DNA from: Serripes groenlandicus
Lineage: Eukaryota; Mollusca; Bivalvia; Cardiida; Cardiidae
Assembly: GCA_031761405.1 (NCBI GenBank)
Contig: JASEVX010000003.1
Coordinates: 64,718,927 to 64,782,926 of the forward strand
Direction: 5' to 3'
DNA length: 64,000 bases
Shown: one piece after another, positions 34,101 to 62,847 of the stretch
Position numbering within the stretch: the stretch's first letter is position 1
Layout of the letters: each line of letters begins with the position of its first letter
Position numbers and translations under genes: made by a program
The notes under the pieces: model-generated
Seen by the model: the letters and a program-made list of their open reading frames with translations, nothing else
Told to the model about the DNA's origin: nothing
Databases searched by the model: none

Positions 34101-37100
34101 TTTTTCACCTTGCGACCTTGACCTTTGACCTAGATGTTGCCATTCTCGAAAAAAAACTTTAACCTTGACCACTACTTTTGAACCATAACAGGTACGGCTA
34201 CCATATTTCACATGTGTATTCCTTGTGACATGACCTTTCTGTCAGTACCAACATTTTTGACCTGGCGACCTTGACCTTTGACCTAGATGTTGCCATTGGG
34301 GGGCATCAGTGTTTCACAAACACATCTTGTTTTACTTAGAAATTCTGGTTAAAGTTTTGCATGCAACTAAATTAAGAGTCCATATCTCAGTATATACTTG
34401 ATGCATTGCATTGAACCTTTATACAACCCTACCCAACTATTACACCTATGTAGATTATCAAGTTAGATAACTCTATCCTGCATTTTATGCAAGTTATGGC
34501 CTTTTTGGACTTATAAATTCTGGTTAAAGTTCTGCATGCAACTACATAAAGAGACCATCTCTTAGTAACTACTTGATGCATTGCATTGAAACTTTATACA
34601 GCCCTTACCAACCATCACATCTATGTAAACAATCAAGTATGATCACTCTATCCAGCATTTTATGCAAGTTATGGACCTTTTTGGACTTAGAAATTCTGGT
34701 TAAAGTTTTGCAACTACATTTAGAGTGTAATCTCGAACAATTGTATTGAAACTTTATACAACCTTTCCCAATTGCACAACTATAAACACAACTAATTAAG
34801 ATAACTCGATCCTGTATATGGTGCAAATTTTTGCCCTTTTTATGCCCCCGGAATCTCCGATTCGGTGGGCATATAGTTTTTGGCCTGTCTGTTGGTTGGT
34901 TGGTCTGTTGGTCTGTCTGTCTGTCTGCACAAAAAAAACTTTAACCTTGACCACTACTTTTGAACCATAACAGGTACGGCTACCATATTTCACATGTGTA
35001 TTCCTTGTGACATGACCTTTCTGTCAGTACCAAAATGTTAGACCTTGCGACCTTGACCTTTGACCTAGAGGTTGCCATTCTCGAAAAAAACTTTAACCTT
35101 GGCCATTACTTTTGAACCATAACAGATACGGCTACCATATTTCACATGTGTATTCCTTGTGACATGACCTTTCTGTCAGTACCAACATTTTTGACCTTGC
35201 TACCTTGACCTTTGACCTAGATGTTGCCATGCTAAAAAAAAACTTTAACCTTGGCCATTTCTTTTGAACCATAACAGGTACGGCTACCATATTTCACATG
35301 TGTATTCCTTGTGACATGACATTTCTGTCAGTACCAACATTTTTGACCTTGCGACCTTGACCTTTGACCTAGATGTTGCCATTCTCGAAAAAAACTTTAA
35401 CCTTGGCCATTACTTTTGAACCATAACAGATACGGCTACCATATTTCACATGTGTATTCCTTGTGACATGACCTTTCTGTCAGTACCAACATTTTTCACC
35501 TTGCGACCTTGACCTTGACCTAGATGTTGCCATTCTCGAAATAAACTTTAACCTTGGCCATTTCTTTTGAACCATAACAGGTATGGCTACCATATTTCAC
35601 ATGTGTATTCCTTGTGACATGACCTTTCTGTCAGTACCTTGCGACCTTGACCTTGACCTAGATGTTGCCATTCTCGAAAAAAACTTTAACCTTGGCCATT
35701 ACTTTTGAACCATAACAGGTATGGCTACCATATTTCACATGTCAGTACCAACATTTTTGACCTTGCGACCTTGACCTTTGACCTAGATGTTGCCATTCTC
35801 GAAAAAAACTTTAACCTTGGCCATTACTTTTGAACCATAACAGATACGGCTACCATATTTCACATGTGTATTCCTTGTGACATGACCTTTCTGTCAGTAC
35901 CAACATTTTTGACCTTGCGACCTTTACCTTTGACCTAGATGTTGCCATTCTCAATTTTTTTTTTAACCTTCCCCACTTCTTTTGAACAATAACAGGTAAT
36001 GCTACCATATTTCACATGTGTATACCTTGCGACCTTGACCTTTGACCTAGATGTTGCCATTGGGGGGCATCAGTGTTTCACAAACACATCTTGTTTCACT
36101 TAGAAATTATGGTTAAAGGTTTGCGTGCAACTACATTAAGAGTCCATATCTTAGTAACTACTTGATGCATTCCATTGAAAGGTTATACAACCCTATCTAC
36201 CCATCACACCTATGAAAATAATCATGTTAAATAACACTATCCTGCAAATTATCACCCACTAAGAAATTGTGGTTAAAGTTTTGCATGCAACTACATTAGA
36301 GTCCATTATCTCAGTAACTTAAATAAGCGGTGGAATAGTCGAGCGCGCTGTCCTCCGACAGCTCTTGTTAATGAAATTTTGTCATGTCAAAGTCCATTGG
36401 CACCCGGTAGGGGACTGTATTATCTAAATTATTTTTCTCCTTACATTTATAGGGTACAGTTAACCCTTTCCCACATACAACAAATCTGCAGCAGATGACT
36501 TTGAAAACATCCAGGCAAAAGCACAACAAATCCCTTTATATGAAATAACAATAATTGAATAGAGTTGAAAACATGGTGACAAAAGGAGAAATTGCTCGTT
36601 TAAAGCAATTTCTTCATTTGTCGCCATGTTTTCAAAAAAGCTGTCTGCTGCCGAGGCGTCTGAAAGCGTCTATATTAGGGAAAGGGTTAAAGGATAACAT
36701 ATTGACTTTCTTCTGATCACAGATGGAATAGTCAGCCATGTTTGTGCAGTAAACCTGTATACTGGTAACACCCCTCTACATTGCGCAATCGAGGGCGGGG
36801 ACAATACGGTTGTTGTGGAGACACTCCTAGAAACAGACAATGCCGTCATTAATATGCAGAACACAGCTGGTCTGACAGCAGTTCACTTGGCGTGTAAATA
36901 TGGACGGAAAAAAACTCTTCAAGTTCTGCTGGTAAAGTTTTTGTCTTTTATTTAATACTTTCCTACATCACTCCAAATCTGCATCAGACGACTTTGAAAA
37001 CATCTAGGGGAAAATATGAAAATATTCAATAAAATAGAGTGTAAATATTAATTAGAGATGAAAACATAGTGGCAAAAGAAAAAATTATCATTATGAGCAA

Positions 37101-45197: not shown

Positions 45198-45397
45198 CTA
45201 TTCAACAGCTTGGGTTCTCCTTGTTCTTAAATTCAACACTTCTTTCTCAGACTTATTCACTCTGTCAATATCAAACTGAATACTTCTGGCACAATCTCCC
45301 AATAACAATGGAGGTCTACTGTCTGCTAGGTTCATAAGGTTTTTTAGAGCATCTCTGGCTGCCAATTCTTCTGCAATAAGCTGTGTCTCCCCAGGTG
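45198..45397 (-). CDS. mrpl44: mrpl44 terminal coding exon
   Basis: Acceptor CCCCCAACAG after a pyrimidine run. Two bases complete Ser, then PGETQLIAEELAARDALKNL, the last helix of the dsRNA-binding domain, then a polar tail ending RTRRTQAVE and TAG at 45198-45200. MITE sequence starts within about 10 bp after the stop, so the 3' UTR is transposon-derived. Confidence -1.
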
Positions 45398-48300
45398 CTG
45401 TTGGGGGAAAAACATATTACAAATATTAACCCTTAAAAACAATTGAGTAATTGTTTGGCGTCTGAAGCAACGTTCAACAATTTTAGTTATATCACGGCGT
45501 CTCCTGGGTAAGTTACCAGTACTACTGGGCCATTTATCCTGACACCAGTCAGTAGGTTATATCACGGCGTCTCCTGGGTAAGTTACCAGTACTACTGGGC
45601 CATTTATCCTTACACCAGTCAGTCAGTTATATCACGGCGTCTCCTGAATAAGTTACCAGTACTACTGGGCTATTTATCCTTACACCAGTCAGTCAGTAAA
45701 TCACGGCGTCTCCTGGGTAAGTTACCAGTACTTCTGGGCCATTTATCCTTACACCAGTCAGTCAGTTATATCACGGCGTCTCCTGGGTAAGTTACCAGTA
45801 CTACTGGGCCATTTATCCTGACACTCGCCAGTCAGTCGTAATGCTAACGCTGCAATCCAGAGCGCCAAGAAGAGCAGCCATTACTACCATATTTAAAGTC
45901 TTTAGTATGACTCGGCCGGGAATCAAACCCGCAAATCCGGCACTCGAGGCTGATGCTCTACTCTACCACTACACCCCCGAGGTGGTCACCTTGACAACGA
46001 ATCTGCGGCAGACAACTTTGAAAACATCTACGCTTAAAATATATATAAAATCATAATCATAAATATATGAATGTGTAAATCATTGATTAGAGATGAAAAC
46101 ATTGTAGCTAATTATGAGCAATTTCCATTTGCTACAATGCTTTCACCTGCATCTGCTAGAGGGAAAGCGTTATTATCCCCTCGTCAAACAAAGTTTGAGA
46201 GGGGATAATGATATAGTAACGGGGCTGTCCGTTTGTGCGTCCTTCCGTAACAACCTTGTGACCACTCTACACTGAACATCCTTTGACCGATCTTAACCAA
46301 CCTTGGTATACAGTTAGTATATGGCAAGGTCTAGAAGCCTATTTATTTTCAAGGTCATACGGTCAAGGTCAATGTCAAAATCGGACTTTCCGTCCGTAAC
46401 AACCTTGTGACCTCTCTACACTGAACATCCTTTGACTGATCTTAACCAAACGTGGTATACAGTTAGTATATGGCATGGTCTAGAAGCCTATTTATTTTCA
46501 AGGTCATACGGTCAAGGTCAAAATTTGACTTTCACTATTTTCCCATATAACAACCTTGTGACCACTCTACATTGAACATCCTTTGACCGATCTTAACCAA
46601 ACTTGATTTACTGTTTGTATATGGCAAGGTCTAGAAGCCTATTTATTTTAAAGGTCATAGGGTCAAGGTCAATGTCAAAATGGGACTTTCCGTCCATAAC
46701 CTTGTGACCACTCTACACTGAACATCCTTTGACTGATCTTAACCAAACTTGGTATACAGTTAGTATATGGCAAGGTCTAGAAGCCTGATCTTGATCACAA
46801 GAGAACTCGATGTGATGATTAAATACCGAGGGGATGCATCCGCTTTGCGGTGCCCTTGTTATAAATAGACCCTGGATGAAATGCTCAACTCTGTTGGTCG
46901 ATGGGAAAGCTTGACAATTCTGAAGCAGACGACTTTGAACATATTTTGTCAAACAAAAGAAAATCTCTCTAATTGAATGGATAACCTATGACCAAAAGTG
47001 GAAAACATTGTGGCAAAAGGAGAAATTGCTTGTTTTGTACGCCCCTTTCAACAATAGCAACAAAGCAGGCAACTTGAAAATAACCATATCAGGAAACGAG
47101 CTACAGAGCAGTTAACTAGTCTTTACCCACCTATATATCTCCTATTACTCAAGCAAATTCTGTGTTGTAGGTACTCAAAAGAATCATCTCATAGAGTGTC
47201 AAATGAAGGTTTTGTAATTTGAGATACTCGCCCTATCTTGAGCTCTGATACAGCTATCGAAATTTAGTCCTTTGTCATACATAATTAACCTGCAGCCGAC
47301 AACTTTAAAAACACCTTGGGAGAAATCGCTCTAAATGAAAGTACAATTTTAGATTATGTACAGTGGAAAATCTTGTGGGAAAAGTAGAAATTGCTTATCA
47401 GAAAACAAAATTTCTCGTCGTCTGCTGCAAAAACCTTAAATTGTGTCATTATGTGGACAAGCCTGAAATCAAACTTACATTTTCCAATCAGTTTTTTATC
47501 ACTATATATTCCCACGTTGTACACGGCCATTATTGTATTTCTCGCCGAGGTCGATAACATTCGTGCTTCCGGTGGTCCACGACCTTGACTCTCAAGAATT
47601 CCCGCTAAAACACCTACAGGGTTATCTACCCTCCATATCTCACTGATGTTTTTACCATTCAATTGCGGGACAATGAAGTCAAGTACAAAGAACTTGGCTC
47701 GCTCCTCTCCCTGAAATTTAGATTCAGCCATTTGTTATTCAATTCAAAAAGTGCTTAGCGTATCTAATTCTTCCCTAATGCGGACAGTTTTTGAGGACTG
47801 CAAATGGAAAACAAATAAATTGCTTATACAAAGCAACAGGACAAGAGTGTTTAATTAACCCTTTTCCTCATATAGACGCTTTCTGACGCCTCTGCAGCAG
47901 ACGGCTTTTTGAAAACATAGTGACAAAAGAAGAAATTGCTCAAAATGAGCAATATTTCCCTTTGCCACAATGTTTTCCGCTTTTAGTCATAGGTTATCCA
48001 TTTAATTATAGAGATTTTCTATTTTTAGACAAAATATGTTCAAAGTCGTCTGCTGCAGAATTTTCGTATGAGGGAAAGGGTTAAAGCAGATGGCGTTTTG
48101 AAAACATAGTGACAAAAGAAGAAATTGCACAGAACGTGCAATTTCTCCTTTTGTCACAATGTTTTCCACTTTTAGTCATAGGTTATCCATCTGACAAAAT
48201 ATGTTCAAAGTCGTCTGCTGCAGAATTTTCGTATGAGGGAAAGGTTTAACTCTTTCATCAGCAACGGCAATATTGAGTTTTCATAAAATATTCCAAAACA

Positions 48301-51300
48301 TGAACAATGGTGTCGCTCTGATTTTGAGGGAAAAGGATAAAGGAAACTATGTCATCTGAAAACATTTAATACATAAAACCAATTTAATCTAAACATAGCA
48401 GACGATTAATTGTTTGGTGTTTTACGCTGCTTTCAACATTTTTTCAGTTATAACATAGCACTTCCTGGGCGAGCTACCAGTACTTCTGGTCCATTTATCC
48501 TTACACCAGACAGTAAGTCGTCATGCTAACCCAGCAACCTTGAGCGCCAAGGAGGGCAGCCATTGCTACCATTTTTAAAGTCATTGGTATGACCCGGCTG
48601 GGGAACAAACCCACATCCGAGATGGAGGCTCTACCACTACACCACCGAGGCAGTGCATAGAAAGTGATCTTGACGTGTCATCCTGCGAACAGAAATAAAA
48701 GACCAAGACGGCCCTAAATTAATTAACCCTTTCCCTCATAGGACAACTCTGCAGCAGACGACTTTGTACATACTTTGTCAAATAAAATAGAAAATCTCTA
48801 TAATTGAATGGATAACCTATGACTAAAAGTGGAAAACATTGTGGCAAAAGGAGAAATTGCTCGTTTTGAGCAATTTCTTCTTTTGTCACTATGTTTTCAA
48901 AAAGCTGTCTGCTGTAGAGGCTTCAGAAAGCGTCTATATGAGGGAAAGGGTTAACTGAGACTCTGAGTTATAGTATAGTACATGTATGTCTTAACTATGT
49001 CAGGCAAATGTCTCAGTGAGATGATTATATTGAGTTCCCACAACATAGGGTTAGGTTGAGTCATGAGAGAAACAATAGGTGAGAAAGAGAGACCGTCCTA
49101 TGGTGTCCTACTCCTTATCGAGTCCTATGGTAGATTGGTTACCTTCCCTGATATCACCCTATCCCTTTCCCTTATATAGACGCATTCCGACGCCTCGGCA
49201 GCAGACAGCTTTTTGAAAAGATGGCGACAAAAGAAGAAATTGCTCAAAACGAGCAATTTCTCCTTTTGTCTCCATGTTTTCAACTCTATTCAATTATTGT
49301 ACTTTCATTTACAGAGATTTTTTCATATTTTTTCTAGATCTTTTCAAAGTCGTCTGCTGCAGAATTGTTGTACGTGGGAAAGGTTTTCCGAGTCTTCAGA
49401 GGACTCTCTATTCCCAGTGTGTAGAACAACCGCTATTTAAAGCGCCCCTGATACATGAAAAAAACTTAGCAGGTAATTTCAGAGAAAGGGTTTATTTACC
49501 TTTGAACGCAGTATTGCGCCAATTACAGCTAAAAATGTTGTTACATACTCCAAGTCCGTTGGAGGATAAATCTGTAAAAAGAAATAAAAAAAAATTAGTA
49601 TACATATTTCTCTGTCTGGCTATGAAGATCTATAATTAACTTTTAAAAAGTGCATTTCATGCATCTACAGCACCTTATGAAAACAAGAGGGCCATGATGG
49701 CTCTGGATCACTTAACTGAGTTATGCAATATGATTTGTAATGCAGTCAGGTAAGCTAATACAAGAGACCCAATGTCAAGTATAGCTCCACTTGCCACAAG
49801 GGCGAAATAACCTAACCAATGTTGTCTGTCTTTTGACAAATTAATATGACATGAGGAAACTGTTAGGTCTGTTTCAGATAAGAAGATTTTCTAAGTTTTC
49901 CTATATCTGTCAAATGTAAAACAGGTGACTGCCATGGCGGGTCAAATTTTGAACCCAGGGGCATTATTTTAATAATCTTGGTAGATGACCACTAGACATT
50001 GCTGCAAACCAAATATCTAAAACAAGAGGGCCATGATGGCCCTTGAATCGCTCACCTGATTATTTTTTTTTTTTCACTTTAGCTATATAAGCCTCGCCCC
50101 ATGGCAGCCATAGTTTCCGACCAATCAACTTCGCTTGAAGGAATCTGATAGAGGGTCACCCTAGGAACATTTCTACAAAATTATTTGAAAATCGGCCAGA
50201 TACTTTTGGAGGAGAAGATTTTTTAGGTTTTCACTATAGCCATATAATGCAAAATAGCCCTGCCTACTGGCGGCCATGTTTTTTGACCAATCAACATGGC
50301 TACACTTTTGGAGAAGAAGATTTTTTAAGTTTGCACTATAGCCATATAAGGCAAAATAGCCCCCCCCCCCCTGGCGGCCATGTTTATCGACCAATCAACA
50401 TGGCTTCAAGGAATCTGATAGAGGGTCACCCAAGGAACATTTCTACAAAATCATTTGAAAATCAGCCTGACACTTTCGGAGGAGAAGATTTTTTAAGTTT
50501 TCACTATAGCCATATAAGGCAAAATAGCCCCGCCCCCCTGTCGGCCATGTTTTTTTACCAATCAACATGGCTTGAAGGAATCTGGTAGAGGGTCATCCAA
50601 GGAACATTTCTACAAAATTATTTGAAAATCTGCCAACCAGCTTGGGAGAAGAAGAATTTTGAAGTTTTTTTCGTTTTGTTGCCATGGAAACAAGAATTCT
50701 GCATGGATCCCAAAACATTTGAAGAAATTCTGGTGAGGTCATTAAGAGGATGCTTTCTGTGAAGTTTCATCCCAATTGACCCACTGGTTACTGAGGAGAA
50801 GATGTTGAAGATTTTTTAAGTTTATACTTTGGCCATTTAAGGCAAAATAGCCCCCGCCCCCTGGCGGCCATGTTTTTCGACCAATCAACATTGCTTGAAG
50901 GAATCTGATAGAGGGTCACCCAAGGAACATTTCTACAAAATTATTTGAAAATCGGCCTGACACTTATGGAGGAGAAGATTTTTTAAGTTTTCATTATAGC
51001 CATAAAAGGCAAAATAGCCCCGCCCCCTGGCGGCCATGTTTTTTTACCAATCAACATGGCTTGAAGGAATCTGATAGAGGATCACCCAAGGAACATTTCT
51101 ACAAAATTATTTGAAAATCGGCCTGACACTTTTGGAGGAGAAGATTTTTTAAGTTTGCACTATAGCCATATAAGGCAAAATAGCCCCGCCCCCCCTGGCG
51201 GCCATGTTTTTCGACCAATCAACATGGCTTGAAGGAATCTGATAGAGGGTCACCCAAGGAACATTTCTACAAAATTATTTGAAAATCAGCCTGACACTTT

Positions 51301-54300
51301 CGGAGGAGAAGATTTTTTAAGTTTTCACTATAGCCATATAAGGCAAAATAGCCCCGCCCCCCCTGGCGGCCATGTTTTTCGACCAATCAACACGGCTTGA
51401 AGGAATCTGATAGAGGGTCATCCAAGGAACATTTCTACAAAATTATTTGAAAATCTGCCAACCAATTCGGGAGAAGAAGAATTTTGAAGTTTTTTCGGTT
51501 TCGTTGCCATGGAAACCAGAATTTTGCATGGATCCCAAAAATTTGAAGGAATTCTGGTGAGATCATTGAGAGGATGCTTTCTGTGAAGTTTCATCCAAAT
51601 TGACCCACTGGTTACTGAGGAGAAGAAGTTGACGCACGACGCACGACGGACGACGGACAAAAGGCGATCACAATAACTCACCTTGAGCAAAGCTCAGGTG
51701 AGCTAAAAAGTGTATGTTTGTGGGAAAAGGGTCCATAATACAGATCTTTTAGAGTATGATATTTTAAATAACGGATTTGTATAGCTATTTCATCATGTGT
51801 GTGTGTTTGACATAAATATTTTCAAAAAGACACAGTGAGTGACTTACACTTGAATGAATAATGTCGGTGTATCCAAAGTTGGTGGTAAGAAACAACAGAG
51901 TAAATATTTAAATGAAGACATAGCGACTTACACTGGAATGAATAATGTCGGTGTATCCAAAGTTGGTGGTAAGAAACAACAGAGTAAATATTTAAATGAA
52001 GACATAGCGACTTACACTTGAATCAATAATGTCGGTGTATCCAAAGTTGGTGGTAAGAAACAACAGAGTAAATATTTAAATGAAGACATAGCGACTTACA
52101 CTTGAATCAATAATGTCGGTGTATCCAAAGTTGGTGGTAAGAAACAACAGAGTAAATATTTAAATGAAGACATAGCGACTTACACTTGAATCAATAATGT
52201 CGGTGTATCCAAAGTTGGTGGTAAGAAACAACAGAGTAAATATTTAAATGAAGACATAGCGACTTACACTTGAATCAATAATGTCGGTGTATCCAAAGTT
52301 GGTGGTAAGAAACAACAGAGTAAATATTTAAATGAAGACATAGCGACTTACACTTGAATCAATAATGTCGGTGTATCCAAAGTTGGTGGTAAGAAACAAC
52401 AGAGTAAATATTTAAATGAAGACATAGCGACTTACACTTGAATCAATAATGTCGGCGTATCCAAAGTTGGTGGTAAGAAACAACAGAGTAAATATTTAAA
52501 TGAAGACATAGCGACTTACACTTGAATCAATAATGTCGGCGTATCCAAAGTTGGTGGTAAGAAACAACAGAGTAAATATTTAAATGAAGACATAGCGACT
52601 TACACTTGAATCAATAATGTCGGCGTATCCAAAGTTGGTGGTAAGAAACAACAGAGTAAATATTTAAATGAAGACATAGCGACTTACACTTGAATCAATA
52701 ATGTCGGCGTATCCAAAGTTGGTGGTAAGAAACAACAGAGTAAATATTTAAATGAAGACATAGCGACTTACACTTGAATCAATAATGTCGGCGTATCCAA
52801 AGTTGGTGGTAAGAAACAACAGAGTAAATATTTAAATGAAGACATAGCGACTTACACTTGAATCAATAATGTCGGTGTATCCAAAGTTGGTGGTAAGAAA
52901 CAACAGAGTAAATATTTAAATGAAGACATAGCGACTTACACTTGAATCAATAATGTCGGCGTATCCAAAGTTGGTGGTAAGAAACAACAGAGTAAATATT
53001 TAAATGAAGACATAGCGACTTACACTTGAATCAATAATGTCGGCGTATCCAAAGTTGGTGGTAAGAAACAACAGAGTAAATATTTAAATGAAGACATAGC
53101 GACTTACACTTGAATCAATAATGTCGGTGTATCCAAAGTTGGTGGTAAGAAACAACAGAGTAAATATTTAAATGAAGACATAGCGACTTACACTTGAATC
53201 AATAATGTCGGTGTATCCAAAGTTGGTGGTAAGAAACAACAGAGTAAATATTTAAATGAAGACATAGCGACTTACACTTGAATCAATAATGTCGGTGTAT
53301 CCAAAGTTGGTGGTAAGAAACAACAGAGTAAATATTTAAATGAAGACATAGCGACTTACACTTGAATCAATAATGTCGGTGTATCCAAAGTTGGTGGTAA
53401 GAAACAACAGAGTAAATATTTAAATGAAGACATAGCGACTTACACTTGAATCAATAATGTCGGTGTATCCAAAGTTGGTGGTAAGAAACAACAGAGTAAA
53501 TATTTAAATGAAGACATAGCGACTTACACTTGAATCAATAATGTCGGCGTATCCAAAGTTGGTGGCAAGAAACAACAGAGTAAATATTTAAATGAAGACA
53601 TAGCGACTTACACTTGAATCAATAATGTCGGTTAATCCAAAGTTGGTGGCAAGAAACAACAGAGTAAATATTTAAATGAAGACATAGCGACTTACACTTG
53701 AATCAATAATGTCGGTGTATCCAAAGTTGGTGGTAAGAAACAACAGAGTAAATATTTAAATGAAGACATAGCGACTTACACTTGAATCAATAATGTCGGC
53801 GTATCCAAAGTTGGTGGCAAGAAACAACAGAGTAAATATTTAAATGAAGACATAGCGACTTACACTTGAATCAATAATGTCGGTTAATCCAAAGTTGGTG
53901 GTAAGAAACAACAGAGTAAATATTTACATGAAGACATAGCGACTTACACTTGAATCAATAATGTCGGCGTATCCAAAGTTGGTGGTAAGAAACAACAGAG
54001 TAAATATTTAAATGAAGACATAGCGACTTACACTTGAATCAATAATGTCGGTTAATCCAAAGTTGGTGGCAAGAAACAACAGAGTAAATATTTAAATGAA
54101 GACATAGCGACTTACACTTGAATCAATAATGTCGGTGTATCCAAAGTTGGTGGTAAGAAACAACAGAGTAAATATTTAAATGAAGACATAGCGACTTACA
54201 CTTGAATCAATAATGTCGGTTAATCCAAAGTTGGTGGCAAGAAACAACAGAGTAAATATTTACATGAAGACATAGCGACTTACACTTGAATCAATAATGT

Positions 54301-57300
54301 CGGTGTATCCAAAGTTGGTGGTAAGAAACAACAGAGTAAATATTTAAATGAAGACATAGCGACTTACACTTGAATCAATAATGTCGGTGTATCCAAAGTT
54401 GGTGGTAAGAAACAACAGAGTAAATATTTAAATGAAGACATAGCGACTTACACTTGAATCAATAATGTCGGTGTATCCAAAGTTGGTGGCAAGAAACAAC
54501 AGAGTAAATATTTAAATGAAGACATAGCGACTTACACTTGAATCAATAATGTCGGTGTATCCAAAGTTGGTGGTAAGAAACAACAGAGTAAATATTTAAA
54601 TGAAGACATAGCGACTTACACTTGAATCAATAATGTCGGTGTATCCAAAGTTGGTGGTAAGAAACAACAGAGTAAATATTTAAATGAAGACATAGCGACT
54701 TACACTTGAATCAATAATGTCGGTTAATCCAAAGTTGGTGGCAAGAAACAACAGAGTATCGTCTGACAGCAAGTGATCACACACTGATCTGAAAACAAGA
54801 TTCAATCTAAGGTTAACCCTTTCCCATACATACAGACATACAGACGCTTTCTGACGCCGCTGCAGCTGATGACTTTTGAAAACACTGTGACAAAAAGAGA
54901 GATTGCTCCTAATGAGCAATATCTCCTTTCACCACAATGTTTTCAACCCTATTCAATAATTACTCGTTCACATATAGAAATTTTATATTTTTGCCTAGAT
55001 GTGTTCAATTTATGCTGCAGATTTGTTGTATGTGGGAAAGGGGTAAAGATGTTATGTTTGGTGGGAGGGAGGTGTAATCGGGCATCTTGATTGCCATCTA
55101 TGTAGATATTAGATGTTTGACCTTGCAAACATTATCTTCACTTTTTGAAGACAACATCTATTTTATACTCAACTAAATTTTATTTGGCAAGTTGACACAT
55201 AAGTGCCATTGGTGATTGACAAGTATATACATGTAAAGAATATGGCTTGAGCCAAAGCAAAAATACAATCAATTACATGATATATATACACAAATACAAA
55301 TACAACTTTAGATCAATACTAATATTGAGAAGAGAAGTACAATTATGTTGAGGTAACCAAGACTAATTTGTTCATGTATACTTTGGCAAATGATTTTTTG
55401 TTTATTAACCCTTTCCCTGATACGACAATTCTGCAGCAGACCACTTTGAACATATTTAGTCAAAACATAGAAAATCTCTATAATTGAATGGATAACCTAT
55501 GACTAAAAGTGGAAAACATTGTGGCAAAAAGAGGAATTGCTCGTTTTGAGCAATTTTTTCTTTTGTCACTATGATTTCAAAAGACCGTCTGCTGCAGAGG
55601 CGTCAGAAAGCGTCTATATGAGGGAAAGGGTTAAAATACACTATATTTTGATTCATACAATATTTTCTCAACTCTGGACACTTTTGAAATATTATTTGCA
55701 ATATCAATTTGAGCTTTTTTACTATTTGAAGATAAAAAGTTAATAAATCGAGAAAAAGAAGGCCATAAGGATGATAGATATTGTGTATGTATATTTCTAT
55801 AATTTTAACAAAAAGAAAAATATTCAGATTCTAAAACCTTTTGCGAACAAAAAAATGCATGTTCTATTGCTTTGTTTGATTCCTAAGTATCTGCCCATTT
55901 CAATCCCTAATTTATATCCAGAAATACTGTGGAGTATCAACTGATTGTCCTCTGAGCCCATACCATGTTTAAACATTTCTCTCATGAATACGCGATTTTC
56001 CAGCAGATGACTGAACATATTTTGTCAAAAAATAGAAACTCTCTATAATTGAATGGATAACCTATGACTGAAAGTGGAAAACATTGTGGCAATTGGAGAT
56101 ATTGCTCGTTCTGAACATCTTCTTTTGTCATTATGTTTTCAAAAAGCCGTCTGCTGCAGAGGCGTAAGAAAGCGTCAATATGAGGGAAAGGGTTAATGAG
56201 TCTGTGAAAAGTCTCCAACAAAGTGTTAACTGTCCCCCCTATGCAGGTAGAACAGCACTTTATGTGAAATCAGACAAAAACTACCATTGTGGCCACTCTC
56301 ATATAACCCTTTCCTCAAAGAGAAAATCTTAACCCTTTCCCACCTATAAATTAAAAGTAGCAGACATCTTTTGAAAACATTGTGGTGTAAAGGTGTAATT
56401 GATCATAACAAGCACTTTCTCCCTTTGCCACAAAGTTTACAACTTTATTCAATACTGATATTGCCATTTCTTGATATTTTCCACCCTGTGGCATAAAGGT
56501 TTTATAGCTGCAAGATCATTATATGTGGGAAAGACTTAAAAACATACTGGAAATATCTCTATATGAACTGAGTAGAAAACCTCGTGAGAAAATTCTTCAT
56601 TGTGAGAAATTTATCCTTTTCTTGCAATGTTTTCAAAATTCGTCTGATGTAATTTGTAAATGTATCAAAATTCATCTGCATGTTGGAACAGGTCAACCCT
56701 TTCCCATAAATAGATGCATTTTGTCGTCTCTACAGCAGACGACATTTGATTACATTGTGGCAAAAGAAGAATTTGCTCATAATGAGAAATTTCTCCTTTT
56801 TCCACAATGCATTCAACCCTATTCAATAATTACACTTTCATTTACATAGAATTTCCATATATGTATTTGCCAAGATGTTTTCAAAGTTGTCTGCTGCAGA
56901 TTTGTTGTATGTGGGAAAGGATTCATGCCAAAGTATTTGTCCTATGATTCTCTGTTTCAGTGTGACACTAATCATACTTCATTTGCTATGTTGGCACCCC
57001 CTGTACACCTTACCTTATTCCTTCTTCTAAAAAGTCCGGAAAAGAATATCTTAAATATGCTGCAATATATTTCCTGGCAACCTCTCGACCTGTGAATATA
57101 AAATACCAATACATAAAATAAGAGGGCAAGACTGATTTCAAACATGAAAAGTACCAACAAATTCAGTCAAGAAATTGTCATAAATCGCTGATACCTAATA
57201 GGCTATGCTATAAAATTATGTCACTTATTAAAAGAAAACACAATCATATTAACCCTTTTCCTCATACAGACACTTTCTGACACCTCTGCAGCAGACGGAT

Positions 57301-60300
57301 TTTAAAAACATTGTGGCAAAAGGAGAAATTACTCTTGATGAGCAATCTATCTTTTTGATAAAATGTTTACAACCATATTCAATTATTGTTCTACTCTTCT
57401 TTCATTTATAGTTTACAGTTTCCATATTTTTGATTAAATGTTTTCAAGGTTGTCTGCAGAAGTATTTTTGCAGTTGGAAAGGGTTAACACTTTCTCTCAT
57501 ATTGACTTTTTCTGATGCCTCTGCAGCAGGCGGCTTTTAGAAAACATAGTGACAAAAGATGATATTGCTCAAAACAAGCAATTTCTCCTTTTGCCACAAT
57601 GTATTTCACTTTCAGTCATTGAGTTATCCATTCAATTATAGAGAGTTTAAGTATGTTTAAAGTCATCTGCTGCAAAATTGTCGTATGAGGGAAAGGGTTT
57701 AACTGTTGTTCAAATGTATGAAAGAGAGCCAGGCCAGGAGAAAAGGAGTCTTGTTGCCTCTGTGAATGGTGCAGACTCGTATGAGTCCGTGCAAAGGTCA
57801 CTTCACTTTACATTCAAACCTGTGTTTGAAGACCACCCATGGAAAGTGAACAATCTGGTCTTTGTCCACAGGTGGTCCTTAGTTGCAGGGTCATTAATAC
57901 AGAAAAAGAGTATTTGGAAATAAAAGTATGGTCGCTATAGACAAGTTTGACTAATTGTACTGAACCTAATAGATAGAAAACTAGATTTGCTGTCAAACTT
58001 GTTTCATTCTTGTTATTCTTTATTTCATGTCAAAACAAAAATGCCTTATCCCTTTCCCTCATACGACGGTTCTGCAGCAGACGACTTTGAACATAATTTG
58101 TCAAAAAATAGAAAATCTCTGTAATTGAATGGATAACCTATGACTAAAAGTGAAAAAACATTGTGTCAAAAGGAGAAATTGCTCGTTTTGAGCAATTTCT
58201 TCTTTTGTTAATATGTTTTCAAAAAGCCGTCTACAGCTTAGCCCTTTCTCACATACAGACCCTTCTGACGCCTCATGGCAGATTACTTTTTAAAACTCTG
58301 TCTCTCATAATGACTAATTTTTCCTTTTGTCACAATGTTTCAATGTCTATGAATATATATATATTTTTATCTAGAGATTTTCAAATAATTTCTGTTGGTT
58401 TGTTTTTCAAAATCATCTGCTTCAGATTCGGTGTATGAGGTAAAATGTTATACCGCTTGCAAACAAAAATTCTGCAGCAAAGTACTTTAAAAACATGTAC
58501 CTGTAGGCCAAAATATGCCACTTATAATTCTTGAAGAGTTGGAAGACATTTTAGGAAACAAGAGGGCCATAATGGCCCTAGATCGCTCCCCTGAGTTAAC
58601 CTCATAGTCAATCACTATAACATTTTTTTTCAGTCAAGAATGCTTTTACTAGAGTGTTAACAAAATTCCCCTTCAATTTGGTCTACTGATCTTGTTTTTG
58701 ACCGAACATGACCAATATTCGAAAGTGGCCAAGGTATAATCAATACAATCATTCTGACAATGTTTTCATGCCGCTTCCAGGGTGTTAAAAAGGTTTTATT
58801 CTCAATTTGGCCTAGTGACCTGGTTTTTGACCGAACATGACCCATATTCAAATAAGACCTAGATACCACCAAAACAGACATTCTGACAAAGTTTTATGCT
58901 GCTGAAGCAAAAAACACAGACTCCACAGTGTCTAGTGACCTAGTTTTTAACCTGGCATGACCCATATTCGGGCTTGACCTAGATATCATCAATGCAAACA
59001 TTTTTATAAAGTTTCAAGCTGTTTTTAACCTGACATGACCCATAATCTTACTTTGGCTAGCTATCGTCAAGTCAATTATTCTAACAAAGTTTCAACATGC
59101 TCAAGTTAAAACTTCAGCCTCACAAGTGTTAACAAAATTTTCCTTCAATTTGACCTTGTGACCTTGTTTTTGACCTCACACGACCAAGATTTGATGGAGA
59201 AGTTTGTTCTGATAAATTTTCATGAAAATAGATGCACAATGTAGCCTACAGAGTGTTCACAAGGCAATTATTGACAACGCATGACGGACCGACGACAAAA
59301 TGTGATCACAATAGTTCCCGTTGAATACTTCGTGCTCATGTAAGCAAAAAGAGAAATGTCTCATCAAAAGTTGTATGTTTAGTTGTGTCAAAAAATGTCT
59401 GCAAGTAAAAAAGTGTTCCCTGTCCCAATTACAACTAATCTGCAGCAGACGACTTTGAAAAAATAAAGGTAACAAGAAAATGTGTCCATGGAACACGGAT
59501 GCCCTGGTTGTTAACTATATTTTAAAACGGACGGACGAACAGTTGGTCCAACCTCAAATTGATACAATTTTTTAAACAATGATATGTTGATTGTCATTTG
59601 TGTGAAGTTTCATAATGATAGGACATCAGGTTCACTAAAATCTAACTTGACCAAAAACTTTAACCTGAGAATGGAATGGACGAACAGACAGACGAACGGA
59701 CGAACGGACGGACGAACAGTTGGTCCAACCTCAAATTGATACAATTTTTTAAACAATGATATGTTGATTGTCATTTGTGTGAAGTTTCATCATGATAGGA
59801 CATCAGGTTCACTAAAATCTAACTTGACCAAAAACTTTAACCTGAGAATGGAATGGACGAACAGACAGACGAACAGACGGACGAACAGTTGGTCCAACCT
59901 CAAATTGATACAATTTTTTAAAGAATGATATGTTAATAGTCATTTGTGTGAAGTTTCATCATGATCGGACATCAGCTTCACTAAAATCTAACTTGACCAA
60001 AAACTTTAACCTGAGAATGGAATGGACGAACAGAGAGACGAACAGACGGATGAACAGTTCCAACCTCAAATTGATACAATTTTTTAAACAATGATATGTT
60101 GATTGTCATTTGTGTGAAGTTTCATAATGATAGGACATCAGGTTCACTAAAATCTAACTTGACCAAAAACTTTAACCTGAGCGGGACGGACGAACGGACG
60201 AACGGACGGACGGACGGACGTACAGACCGGAAAACTATATGCCCCTCATACTTCGTATGCCGGGGCATAAAAATGTAGAAAATCTCTTTAAATGAATGTA

Positions 60301-62847
60301 TAATGAATGGACATATTGAGTAATTTCTCCTTTTGCCAAACTATTTTCAAAGTTGTCTGCTGCAGAGGCATCAGAAAGTGCCTGTATGTTGTACAGGGTT
60401 AACCCTTTCCCTCATATATATGCTTTCTGACGCCTCTGCAGCAGACGGCTTTTTGAAAACATAGTGACAAAAGAAGAAATTGCTCAAAACAAGCAATTTC
60501 TCCTTATGCCACAATATTTTCCACTTTTAGTCATAGGTTATCCATTCAGTTATAAAGATTTTCTATTTTTTGACGAAACATGCTCAAAGTCGTCTGCTGC
60601 AGAATTGTTGTATGTGGTAGAGGGTTAAATCTACCTTGTTGAGCTAGTTGCGTGTTGTCTGCCACTACGGTGTCAATAGTTATACCCAACTCTTCATGCT
60701 TCTCAGACTCTTCTGCCCTCAATGAGCTAAAATACACAGTCAACAATGAACATAGAACACATGTCTGCTTTAACCCTTTCCCTCATATAGACGCTTTCTG
60801 ACGCCTCTACAGCAGACGGCTTTTTGAAAACGTAGTGACAAAAGAAGAAATTGCACAAAACGTGCAATTTCTCCTTTTGCCACAATGTTTTCCACTTTTT
60901 GTCATAGGTTATCCCTTCAATTATAGAAATTTTCTATGTTTTGACAAAATACTTTCAAAGTCGTCTGATGCATGATTGTCGTATGAGGAAAAGGGTTAAC
61001 AATGAACATAGAACACATGTCTGCTTTAACCCTTTCCCACATACAACAAATCCGCAGCAGACAACTTTGAAAAACTCTAGGAATATACATGGAAACTATA
61101 AATGAAATTATATTTATTGAATACAGTTGAAAACATTGTGGCAAAAGGAGAAATTGCTCATCATGAGCAATTTCTTCTTTTGCCACAATGTTTTCAAAAG
61201 TCATCAGAATGCATCTACAAGTGGGAAAGTGTTAAAAATAACATCTGAAAAGTTAAAAAGGTTAGCTTGATAGTTGAAAATAAAGATTTTAAATGTCATC
61301 TGCTGTAAAAACAAGGCTTGCATGATGTTTTATGACGCTTTCATTTTTCCTCCAGTTATATCACATGACAATGCTTGTATCCGATGAAATATACCCATTA
61401 CGTATTTCTTTATATATGACACGTGTAATATAACATGACCAAATTACTATGTGTGTATTCATCAGCGAATGTTTACAAAATGGCTGAGTATGTGTGTATT
61501 CATCAGCGAATGTTTACAAAATGGCTGAGATTGTGAACCTGGTAAACACAAACGTCATGATAGATGGACGAGGCAACGGGACCATTATCAGTCATAAAAA
61601 TATATTTTGTGTGATTATTTAACTGTCTATTAAGTATTACACGTTGGGACTTTTTTCTGACAGCGAAAAAACGATTTTCTTTTTCTGTTTCGTCATGTGA
61701 TAAAAAGAATCAGACATTCATTGTCATTACATAAAGTTTTATCAAACTCGTCCAAGAAATTTGTTATTAAGCTCGCCAAAGTCTCGCTTAATAACAAATT
61801 TCTTGAACTCGTTTAATAAAACTTTTATAAAATGACAACTCATGTCAGATCCTATATATATATCAATGGGATTCCTTGGTAAGTTACCATTACTACTTGT
61901 CAATTTATTCTTATACCAATCCTTAGCGCCGAAGAGGGATGGTCATTTCAACCATTTTTAAAGTTACTGGTTTGACCCGTCTGGGAACAAATCCAATACC
62001 TCCCACACCCAAGGAAAAGAAGAAAATGCTTTTCTGATACAAATTACGGTTTAGCAGACACCTTTGAAATTGTGCGATGAGCAATTTTAATTTTTCAAGC
62101 AATGTTTTCTAGTCTGTCTGTTAGGTCAGTTTAATCCTTCTCTGAAGCAGACAATTTATAAAAACAGTGCGAGAAAAGGGAAATTGATTTGTTTTATTGG
62201 GGTTTTACGGCGTTTTCAACATTATTTCAGTTGTATCACGGCAACAGTTCACTTATTCATGATCCCTGGGTAACCAAACAGTACTAGGCTAGAAAATTGG
62301 TCTTGCACAAGAGCACTCCACCATGACCGTTAAGCCAAAAGGGAAATTGATCATTTTCTTGCAGGAGAACTGTTAACCTGGGGTATTCATGTTGCAGATT
62401 AATCAGTCAAAAATATACTGCATAACTATTCTAAGTTCTTGCAGGAGAACTGTTAACCTGGGGTATTCATGTTGCAGATTAATCAGTCAAAAATATACTG
62501 CATAACTATTCTAAGTTCTTGCAGGAGAACTGTTAACCTTGGGTATTCATGTTGCAGATTAATCAGTCAAAAATATACTGCATAACTATTCTAAGTTCTC
62601 GCAGGAGAACTGTTAACCTGCAGTATTCATGTTGCAGAGTAAAATATGTACATTTATGTTTTTTCAGTAATTATACCCATTTTGACCTATTTCCACTTGT
62701 CGACGCATTTTGCAGCCTCTGCAGCTAATATTGTTACAAAAAATTTGTTATCATACTAACCTGCATCTAAATGCTAGTCTCAGCCATTTATCATCGAACT
62801 CCTCACCAAGTCTTTGTCCAAATGCATACCTCTCCGCCTCTATGTTC
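45198..62847 (-). CDS. mrpl44: Mitochondrial large-subunit ribosomal protein mL44 (MRPL44), 5' end outside window
   Basis: Seven - strand exons: 62761-62847, 60635-60726, 57014-57089, 54704-54788, 49500-49571, 47479-47710, 45198-45397. All six junctions are phase-consistent and give about 280 residues plus TAG (45198-45200). mL44 is a mitochondrial-ribosome component with a catalytically dead RNase III-like domain and a C-terminal dsRNA-binding domain. Animal mL44 landmarks appear in order: ERYAFGQRLGEEF, FLAVIGAILRSKGEERAKFF, GKNISEIWRVDNPVG, VGIYSDKKLIGKSPGETQL and AEELAARDAL. The RNase III-like part spans about residues 1-150 and the dsRNA-binding part about 165-245. Animal homologues are near 330 residues, so roughly 50-80 N-terminal residues, with the mitochondrial presequence, lie beyond 64000. 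The gene is convergent with the ankyrin gene. The intron after exon 54704-54788 carries an 84-bp array copied from that exon's own end. Confidence -1.
45449..45986 (-). mobile_element. tRNA-headed SINE with an internal 70-bp tandem expansion
   Basis: On the - strand it starts with a tRNA-like head (GTGTAGTGGTAGAGTAGAGC as A-box region, GGTTTGATTCC as B box), then a body ending near GTTGAACGTTGC. Five copies of a 70-bp segment (ATCACGGCGTCTCCTGGGTA at 45491, 45561, 45631, 45700 and 45770) swell the body. A related copy at 48409-48656 has the segment once. Confidence -1.
46173..46858 (+). mobile_element. HINE/pearl-like element, TTATCCCCTCG family
   Basis: 5' TTATCCCCTCGTCAAACAAA and a nearby complement GAGGGGATAATG; microsatellite-like GTCCG/GTCC stretch; about four cores of 130-160 bp (GAACATCCTTTGACCGATCT); 3' ATCCGCTTTGCGGTGCC stem-loop then CTTG. 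In the mrpl44 intron between exons 45198 and 47479. Confidence -1.
46910..47445. mobile_element. MITE left half and a degenerate MITE next to mrpl44 exon 6
   Basis: 46910-47040 (CAGACGACTTTGAACATATT...). 47265-47445 has weak arms (TGCAGCCGACAACTTTAAAA, TCGTCTGCTGCAAAAACC) and ends about 35 bp from the exon 6 donor. Confidence -1.
47479..47710 (-). CDS. mrpl44: mrpl44 exon 6
   Basis: Acceptor AAATTTCAG, donor GGAAAAT|GTAAGT. 77 codons plus one base, beginning GEERAKFFVLDFIVPQLNGK and containing EIWRVDNPVGVL and VGIYSDKKLIGK, which are strongly mL44-like. An ATG in the open frame at 47731 lies in the intron before the acceptor and is not the start. Degenerate MITE sequence begins about 35 bp past the donor. 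Confidence -1.
47855..48249 (+). mobile_element. Complete MITE plus partial tandem copy
   Basis: 47855-48084: TTAACCCTTTTCCTCATATA to GTATGAGGGAAAGGGTTAA. A second copy missing its left terminus (48085-48249) follows at once and ends GAGGGAAAGGTTTAA. Confidence -1.
48409..48656 (-). mobile_element. tRNA-headed SINE
   Basis: Same family as 45449-45986, reverse orientation. Body GTTTGGTGTTTTACGCTGC ... head with CTCTACCACTACACCACCGA (complement of a tRNA D-arm region). Internal 70-bp segment present once. Confidence -1.
48723..48954 (-). mobile_element. MITE, complete
   Basis: TTAACCCTTTCCCTCATAGG to TATGAGGGAAAGGGTTAA, 232 bp, with GAAATTGCTCGTTTTGAGC hairpin. Confidence -1.
49156..49390 (+). 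mobile_element. MITE copy with decayed ends
   Basis: TATCCCTTTCCCTTATATAG to GTACGTGGGAAAGGTTTTCC. 110 bp downstream (on -) of mrpl44 exon 49500-49571. Confidence -1.
49500..49571 (-). CDS. mrpl44: mrpl44 exon 5
   Basis: Acceptor TTTTTACAG, donor TCAAAG|GTAAAT. Exactly 24 codons, phase 0 both ends: IYPPTDLEYVTTFLAVIGAI then LRSK. The FxAVIGAL-like motif is a hallmark of mL44. Confidence -1.
49685..49940 (-). mobile_element. AGCTCACC-family element, 3' fragment
   Basis: Starts ACAAGAGGGCCATGATGGC, i.e. the complement of the family's 3' hairpin and CTTG end, then about 250 bp of body without a 5' end. Confidence -1.
50023..51706 (-). mobile_element. AGCTCACC-family HINE with tandem cores
   Basis: Read on -: 5' TAGCTCACCTGAGCTTTGCT, GTCCGTCGTGCGTCGTGC stretch, about ten imperfect cores (CGGCCATG...ACCAATCAAC, GAGGGTCACCCAAGGAAC), 3' GGGCCATCATGGCCCTCTTG. 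Lies in the same mrpl44 intron as the 84-bp array. Confidence -1.
51841..54757 (-). repeat. 84-bp tandem array made from the mrpl44 exon 4 / intron junction, 35 units
   Basis: Units start every 84 bp from 51841 to 54697 with no length change (34 x 84 = 2856). Each holds, on the - strand, the last 54 bp (18 codons) of mrpl44 exon 4, the donor AGT|GTAAGT and 30 bp of intron. The unit at 54697 is the true exon. Units differ by substitution at few sites: TTA/TAC before ACC or GCC, GCC/ACC in LATN, and rare others. Native-type variants occur only in the 14 units nearest the exon. No unit has a 3' splice site before its exon piece, so the copies cannot be exons by themselves. In the intron segment the exon frame runs GTAAGTCGC... 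into TAA. Confidence -1.
54704..54788 (-). CDS. mrpl44: mrpl44 exon 4, source of the 84-bp array
   Basis: Acceptor TTGTTTTCAG (AG at 54789-54790), donor TCAAGT|GTAAGT (GT at 54702-54703). One completing base, then SVCDHLLSDDTLLFLATNFG and LTDIIDSS, phase 0 out. This fits between EEGIR of the previous exon and IYPPTDLEY of the next, as in animal mL44. Its last 54 bp plus 30 bp of intron are repeated 34 more times immediately downstream. Confidence -1.
54813..55046 (+). mobile_element. MITE just upstream of mrpl44 exon 4
   Basis: TTAACCCTTTCCCATACATA to GTATGTGGGAAAGGGGTAA. Only 24 bp separate it from the exon 4 acceptor, so the branch point of that intron may lie in the MITE. Confidence -1.
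55047..55404. other. AT-rich intron without recognised feature
   Basis: No MITE termini, HINE core or exon-like frame seen between the two MITE copies. Contains TATATATAC and dispersed CAAATAC repeats only. Confidence -1.
55405..55634 (-). mobile_element. MITE, complete
   Basis: TTAACCCTTTCCCTGATACG to TATGAGGGAAAGGGTTAA, 230 bp. Confidence -1.
55988..56923. mobile_element. Three MITE copies of mixed state
   Basis: 55988-56195 (left end lost, right GAGGGAAAGGGTTAA), 56332-56540 (TTAACCCTTTCCCACCTATA to TATGTGGGAAAGACTTAA), and 56693-56923 (TCAACCCTTTCCCATAAATA to GTATGTGGGAAAGGATTC), the last about 90 bp downstream (on -) of mrpl44 exon 57014-57089. Confidence -1.
57014..57089 (-). CDS. mrpl44: mrpl44 exon 3
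   Basis: Acceptor ATATTCACAG, donor ATAAG|GTAAGG. Encodes GREVARKYIAAYLRYSFPDF then LEEGI, equivalent to the mL44 segment G...........FL...P....EGI. Two bases in, two out. Confidence -1.
57249..57704 (+). mobile_element. Two MITE copies sharing one TTAA
   Basis: 57249-57487 and 57484-57704 overlap exactly in the TTAA at 57484-57487. This end-to-end arrangement suggests insertion of one copy at the target site of the other. Confidence -1.
58048..58455. mobile_element. Two fused MITE copies
   Basis: 58048-58240 (CCCTTTCCCTCATACGACGG, right terminus missing) runs into 58240-58455 (TTAGCCCTTTCTCACATACA). Confidence -1.
58559..59347 (-). mobile_element. AGCTCACC-family HINE
   Basis: 3' end on - is GGGCCATTATGGCCCTCTTG (complement at 58559-58580). 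Cores carry GACCTGGTTTTTGACC(G)AACATGACCCATATTC. 5' end near 59347 is decayed (CATGAGCACGAAGTATTCAA). Confidence -1.
59473..60270 (-). mobile_element. TATGCCCC-family HINE with four cores
   Basis: Read on -: 5' TATGCCCCGGCATACGAAG with complement ATGAGGGGCATATA; GTCCGTCCGTCCGTTC microsatellite; four cores of about 155-165 bp (TCCTATCATGATGAAACTTC); 3' end near GTGTTCCATGGACAC stem then CTTG. Between mrpl44 exons 57014 and 60635. Confidence -1.
60290..60402 (-). mobile_element. MITE right half
   Basis: GAGTAATTTCTCCTTTTGCC to TGTACAGGGTTAA; shares its TTAA with the next copy. Confidence -1.
60399..60628 (+). mobile_element. MITE lying 6 bp from the mrpl44 exon 2 donor
   Basis: TTAACCCTTTCCCTCATATA to GTATGTGGTAGAGGGTTAA. 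The adjacent intron start is GTAGAT followed directly by TTAACCC on the - strand. Confidence -1.
60635..60726 (-). CDS. mrpl44: mrpl44 exon 2 of those visible
   Basis: Acceptor TATTTTAG, donor CAACAAG|GTAGAT. Encodes SLRAEESEKHEELGITIDTV then VADNTQLAQQ, corresponding to the EE..K...LGI....N..L..QG stretch of animal mL44. One base in, one out. The intron has only about 6 bases before MITE sequence starts (TTAA at 60625-60628). Confidence -1.
60770..61235. mobile_element. Two MITE copies separated by a duplicated 28-bp flank
   Basis: 60770-60999 and 61026-61235. The sequence AACAATGAACATAGAACACA followed by TGTCTGC lies both before the first copy (60743-60769) and between the two (60998-61025). 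Confidence -1.
61236..61447. other. Intron stretch, no recognised feature
   Basis: Between the MITE and the small 41-bp repeat. Holds a lone MITE-arm motif (GTCATCTGCTGTAAAA near 61300) only. Confidence -1.
61448..61529. repeat. Two-copy 41-bp direct repeat
   Basis: TATGTGTGTATTCATCAGCG followed by AATGTTTACAAAATGGCTGAG occurs twice back to back, in an mrpl44 intron. No further structure seen. Confidence -1.
61735..61824. repeat. Long imperfect inverted repeat
   Basis: Inner arms 61753-61772 (CAAGAAATTTGTTATTAAGC) and 61786-61805 are a perfect 20-bp inverted repeat with a 13-nt loop. Outer arms AAAGTTTTATCAAAC / GTTTAATAAAACTTT extend it. It shares the CGTTTAATAAA motif with the palindrome at 42598-42657, suggesting one family. 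Confidence -1.
61868..62333. mobile_element. SINE fragments
   Basis: 61868-62010 matches the body and head of the 45449-45986 SINE (GGTAAGTTACCATTACTAC, GGTTTGACCCGTCTGGGAAC in plus). 62180-62333 has only the 3' domain complement (GGGGTTTTACGGCGTTTTCA). Both decayed. Confidence -1.
62357..62640. repeat. 80-bp tandem repeat, about 3.5 units
   Basis: GCAGGAGAAC recurs at 62361, 62441, 62521 and 62601. Unit includes CTGTTAACCTGGGGTATTC and GTTGCAGATTAATCAGTC. It lies in the mrpl44 intron 3' of exon 62761-62847. Units are nearly identical, so recent. Confidence -1.
62761..62847 (-). CDS. mrpl44: mrpl44 first visible exon
   Basis: On the - strand the acceptor is TTGTACCAG and the donor GCAG|GTTAGT. 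Encodes NIEAERYAFGQRLGEEFDDK then WLRLAFRC, matching the helix that opens the RNase III-like region of mL44. One base in, two out. A MITE lies 20 bp upstream of the acceptor. Confidence -1.

Follow-up and report, generated by a model that had tools for sequence, protein, structure and literature searches.

A minisatellite in a bivalve mrpl44 gene, probably founded by a tandem duplication across the exon 4/intron 4 junction

The gene at the locus

The window, that is, the whole stretch of 64,000 bases analyzed here, carries on its minus strand seven coding exons of a gene that, by homology, is mrpl44 (mL44), together with a tandem array of 84-bp units that begins in one of these exons and continues into the following intron (Table 1). 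AG precedes all seven exons, GT follows each of the six that have a following intron, and the joined frame is open to the stop; the borders were picked to fit homology and frame, and strand and placing were taken from homologs (19 proteins in the first query). The joined protein was 50 to 54% identical to the named mL44 proteins of Mercenaria, Ruditapes, Mya, Potamilus, and Dreissena and 41% identical to a second Mya protein. The five proteins in the range of 50 to 54% were the best named matches and all come from bivalves; since none was near-identical, the DNA is probably from a bivalve outside these species. In the Pfam search, it contained the RM44 endonuclease domain (PF22935, RM44_endonuclease, 1e-33) followed by the MRPL44 double-stranded RNA-binding domain (PF22892, DSRM_MRPL44, 5.4e-09), as is typical of mrpl44/mL44. 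Both domains scored above the cut-off for the joined protein, and scores fell under it when single-exon frames were used.

A preliminary description of this DNA had assigned the array to mrpl44, within the gene and on its own strand. This assignment was borne out by the exon join, by the mL44 and Pfam matches, and by an exact 15-base anchor from the exon part of the unit, which occurred 35 times on the minus strand and 0 times on the opposite strand. The same description had called the exon at the array coding exon 4. It is the fourth in the window, yet an additional upstream coding exon lies 718 bp outside the window (L009:845-964), and the exon is thus at least the fifth coding exon of the gene. 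Exons are numbered below by their order in the window. Exon 4 comprises 31 bp of unique sequence and 54 bp shared with the array (54704-54757, in unit 1).

Table 1. Features of the mrpl44 locus (window positions)
Feature	Position	Strand	Basis or remark
mrpl44 exon 1 of window	62761..62847	-	tblastn, AG/GT borders and frame; further coding exon beyond window
mrpl44 exon 2 of window	60635..60726	-	tblastn, AG/GT borders and frame
mrpl44 exon 3 of window	57014..57089	-	tblastn, AG/GT borders and frame
mrpl44 exon 4 of window	54704..54788	-	85 bp, intact; tblastn, AG/GT borders and frame
Native exon 4 donor GTAAGT	54698..54703	-	phase 0
84-bp tandem array	51841..54757	-	TRF and unit table; 34 full units and terminal unit 35
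34 further identical donors AGT/GTAAGT, units 2-35	51842..54619	-	every 84 bp; one 9-mer in 35/35 units
Probable original intron continuation after last donor	51814..51840	-	alignment and two null tests
mrpl44 intron 4	49572..54703	-	5,132 bp; contains array minus exon part of unit 1
mrpl44 exon 5 of window	49500..49571	-	tblastn, AG/GT borders and frame
mrpl44 exon 6 of window	47479..47710	-	tblastn, AG/GT borders and frame
mrpl44 exon 7 of window	45198..45397	-	coding end with TAG; borders and frame

Anatomy of the array

When the window was scanned with TRF, the array was reported at 51841-54758, with a period of 84, 34.7 copies, 98% matches, and 0 indels. The 35 anchors were spaced by 84 bases throughout, which agrees with the native unit and 34 downstream units of constant length described before, the copy number being that of one assembly. 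Read in the direction of the gene, the unit consists of 54 bp of exon, then GTAAGTC, and then 23 more intron bases. The last 54 bp of the mrpl44 exon and the donor AGT/GTAAGT were present in all 35 units, while the 30 bp of intron were common to 34 of them. The unit content given in the preliminary description therefore holds for the exon part and the donor but not for the intron part of unit 35, in which nothing beyond the exon part and GTAAGTC is kept before other intron sequence follows (51814-51840). At the opposite end, unit 1 (54674-54757) includes the 3' end of the functional exon, and it is the only unit joined to the first 31 bases of exon 4.

The units were closely alike. Ten sequence types were found, with the differing tail of unit 35 counted as a type of its own, and the pairwise difference among units 1 to 34 averaged 1.51 of 84 bases (1.8%), with a maximum of 5. 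Copies identical to unit 1 were found only in the near half of the array, at units 7, 9, and 14, and one sequence variant was confined to the distal units 34 and 35. With 35 head-to-tail units of 84 bp at the one locus found, the array is a minisatellite, for which a unit range of 15 to 100 bp is given in the excerpted text of PMC3618361. As it extends 54 bp into exon 4, it also belongs with repeats at exon borders of the type treated in PMC2812944.

Origin of the array and exchange between units

For the origin of the array, the intron sequence behind the last donor is informative. The 27-base tail after the last GTAAGTC could be aligned with the 23 in-array intron bases; an alignment as good was obtained at 11 of 4741 random places in the window, and 1 of 5000 shuffled sequences scored as well. 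This homology supports duplication of this very junction with the far breakpoint in AAATATTT, as had been proposed. The tail had also been taken for the original continuation of the intron, and it does align with the in-array intron; it is not identical to it, since 1 substitution and 4 gaps, which together cover 8 positions, were needed to align the two, the positions being those of the gaps. In the 61 bases preceding the tail in unit 35, by comparison, 1 site was off the consensus. A tail so much more diverged than the bases before it is not predicted by simple duplication. Thus, the earlier account with two breakpoints stands as far as the duplication goes, but it needs either later homogenization or an error-prone start: exchange kept the exon part of unit 35 like the others, or the founding event itself was error-prone.

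Traces of exchange were sought among units 1 to 34. All four combinations of variants were present at the site pairs 16/32, 16/33, 16/34, and 34/75. When the likeness of units was compared with permuted orders over eight lags, p was 0.002 at lag 2 and 0.004 at lag 3, and the likeness was not significant for neighboring units (lag 1, p 0.105) or at lags 4 to 8 (p 0.14-0.58). The site-pair combinations and the lag pattern fit exchange with breakpoints within units, or recurrent mutation. Regarding the copies of the unit 1 type at positions 7, 9, and 14, either the functional exon end was exchanged with the array or it left older copies there.

The coding parts of unit 1 and of the array majority differ at two residues, for which the array has Thr and Tyr. 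Among 31 aligned mL44 homologs, some of them near-redundant, neither was found in the 30 with a residue there, and the Ala and Leu of unit 1 do occur. To judge from these residues, unit 1 looks constrained and the other units free. The share of variable sites did not differ significantly between the exon part (6/54) and the intron part (1/30) of the unit (p 0.41).

In our preferred reading, to which we give a probability of roughly three in four, the array is an intronic minisatellite in an intact single-copy mrpl44. It would have been founded by a tandem duplication spanning the exon 4/intron 4 junction and then expanded and partly homogenized by exchange between units, through unequal crossing-over or gene conversion; splicing would mostly use the first donor, and the array would be a near-neutral passenger. 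Because the array is made from a conserved exon from which it has never been detached, the functional exon end is exposed to exchange with drifting copies.

One locus in an array-rich genome

A 360-bp array probe was searched against the 1.76-Gb assembly (1739 contigs), and all 11 DNA matches lay inside the array; in this search, very common words are passed over and scores are computed for the best candidates only. With the mrpl44 protein as the query, all 29 matches in the same genome (E up to 10) fell at the locus, 7 at the exon places and 22 at array units, and neither a paralog nor a second haplotype was found in this protein search. In the rest of the window, matches to the array unit reached at most 15 bp. 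That neither the array DNA nor the gene was found at another place makes a dispersed satellite unlikely. The preliminary description had named a genome-wide satellite unrelated to mrpl44 as one of two findings that would overturn it, and the search, in which very common words are skipped, is strong though not absolute evidence against such a satellite.

Tandem arrays as such are abundant. They occupied 24,081 of the 64,000 bases of the window (37.6%) in 28 merged blocks, for example, at 6785-10216, 27569-28843, and 33230-36043. Across eight further stretches of this contig, 79,208 bases in all, their share was 22% (range 2-48%), and it was 13% in 30 loci around SNF2 matches. Only one of the 28 blocks, the 84-bp array, overlapped any of the seven mrpl44 exons, the exon borders used in this comparison being slightly rougher than those of Table 1. 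In the SNF2 control, 30 of the 64 genome matches were scanned. At none of them was the SNF2-domain match overlapped by an array with a period of at least 20, and no 24-mer occurred more than once in a match and its 40-bp flanks. At one locus (L031), the match was overlapped by a 15-bp repeat (2.3 copies), and another (L030) was the only one with an array within 40 bp of the match. This control is rough, because match ends only approximate exon ends, some of the loci sit close together, and some matches, being interrupted by stop codons or part of long open frames, may not represent ordinary exons. An array on an exon edge thus looks uncommon (1/28 window arrays; 0/30 SNF2 matches). Where arrays are this abundant, no special mechanism is required for one of them to catch an exon edge, and the mrpl44 array, which happened to begin on such an edge, is most likely harmless.

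Donors and the choice of splice site

GTAAGT occurred 35 times on the sense strand of intron 4, the native donor included, and 0 times on the antisense strand. As the same nine bases are found in all 35 donors, donor strength over these bases cannot discriminate among them. With donors 1, 2, and 3, the predicted length of exon 4 is 85, 169, and 253 nt, respectively. An in-frame stop was present in 34 of 34 inter-donor segments, so that each later donor would add a stop. Transcripts with a premature in-frame stop are probably cleared by nonsense-mediated decay, and those made with a later donor would probably be destroyed in this way.

Exon 4 is flanked by introns of 2,225 bp (intron 3) and 5,132 bp (intron 4). 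According to the excerpted text of PMC9225289, when near-equal donors have large introns on both sides, the upstream one is favored. This is a tendency only, with the upstream donor winning 60% over all near-equal events in that excerpt. A Table 1 footnote in the same source gives an upstream preference of 42% where both exon forms are 50-250 nt; this class covers donor 1 versus donor 2 (85 and 169 nt), and leakage to early decoys is therefore quite possible. A preference for smaller exons is also stated there, which favors donor 1, as later decoys give ever longer exons. Thus, the spliceosome would mostly take the first of the 35 identical donors, the one nearest to the acceptor of exon 4, and use of this donor would explain why the array is tolerated. 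The array would then leave with intron 4 and drift as a near-neutral passenger, with some leakage possible. Since the donors are identical over nine bases and stand behind one acceptor, they form a natural experiment on proximity rules in splice-site choice.

No support was obtained for selection on the donor copies, as all 7 variable sites would miss the 9 donor bases by chance with a probability of 0.44. Predicted RNA folding energies of -8.7 kcal/mol for one unit and -20.9 kcal/mol for two, obtained with no shuffle control, indicate a weak structure.

Alternative explanations

A functional role has to be weighed against the passenger reading. In a splicing rheostat, the 34 decoys would compete with the native donor, some transcripts would gain a premature stop and decay, and the length of the array would set the output of mrpl44. 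We regard this as unlikely. It would draw on the sense direction and nine-base identity of all 35 donors, on the stop that follows every read-through donor (34/34), on the start of the array directly behind the native donor, and on the merely moderate upstream preference in the excerpted PMC9225289, whereas the lack of variation in the donor copies is not significant, low divergence alone being enough to produce it. That a decoy-donor array still exchanging sequence with the functional exon might form a heritable, length-dependent dial on the expression of a mitochondrial ribosome gene is improbable.

The remaining explanations concern what the array is rather than what it does. An array of 2.9 kb made of near-identical 84-bp units is difficult to assemble, and misassembly could have inflated a short or single array; the ten unit types in irregular order, the distinct distal units joined to a differing tail, the position within a 150.8-Mb contig, and the failure to find a second locus make this unlikely, although such points do not fix the exact copy number. 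A dispersed satellite or a transposon-borne array, such as the Helentron central repeats of oysters, might instead have landed in mrpl44. Many such arrays are present in the Pacific oyster genome (PMC7492417, as excerpted), and tandem arrays make up 38% of the window, but unit 1 belongs to the coding exon of mrpl44 itself, the probe matched nothing outside the locus (11/11) in a search that passes over very common words, and no unit match beyond 15 bp was seen elsewhere in the window, so we consider this very unlikely. Finally, as 84 is divisible by 3 and unit 1 is coding, the units could be read as an expanded protein repeat. This is almost certainly wrong, given the in-frame stop in every inter-donor segment (34/34) and the absence of a repeat at this place in the aligned mL44 homologs.

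Relation to known systems

Repeats at exon-intron boundaries are already known. In the excerpted text of PMC2812944, 27 intron modifications in human duplicated genes are attributed to them; the variable repeats that alter genes there have, with exon and intron cases pooled, units of 30 bp on average, repeated four times. The mrpl44 array resembles these repeats of human segmental-duplication genes as a long-unit, minisatellite-type tandem repeat across an exon-intron border, and it is therefore a long, clean case of a known type, as far as that excerpt describes the type. It differs in scale and setting: units of about 30 bp repeated 4 times in recent paralogs are described there, whereas mrpl44 has 84 bp repeated 35 times, with a second gene copy not found. 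In addition, every mrpl44 unit includes a whole donor, and the case is known here from DNA.

In the RNA-dependent RNA polymerase gene (RdRp) of potato, a new intron was gained when genomic DNA that spans the border of an intron and an exon was duplicated in tandem (PMC4974935, as excerpted). There, as in mrpl44, duplication over a splice border copied splicing signals, but the acceptor side was duplicated in potato, whereas mrpl44 has many copies of the donor side. The mrpl44 unit has no visible acceptor, and a new intron is thus not expected. The Helentron central repeats of Crassostrea gigas (excerpt of PMC7492417) likewise form short arrays that are interspersed in the genome of a bivalve. 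Unlike them, the mrpl44 unit is derived from a gene and was found at one locus, and no carrying mobile element was seen in the sequence comparisons made. In titles and abstract openings of papers retrieved on minisatellites, splice donors, competing splice sites, intron gain, bivalve repeats, and mrpl44, the array is unmentioned.

Other features of the window

A 108-bp array at 18282-19175 was considered as a second junction-derived repeat. Its GTAAGT-like words are on the strand opposite the neighboring ankyrin-type exon, and by eye it lies about 170 bp past the end of that exon; it was not counted as junction-derived. This array and another at 45485-45836 have GTRAGT roughly once per unit (9 and 4 matches, respectively), on the strand opposite the host or adjacent gene. 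Two such arrays are too few to judge selection against sense donors. Ankyrin-repeat open frames (Pfam Ank families) were present on the plus strand at 17879-18244 and 36698-36952, and these are probably exons of a neighboring gene on the strand opposite mrpl44. By eye, dispersed copies of a sequence that contains words such as CTGCAGCAGACG and GGGAAAGGGTTAA were seen across the introns of mrpl44, at places that include 54800-54960, 56010-56190, and 57260-57340; they may represent a small transposon family.
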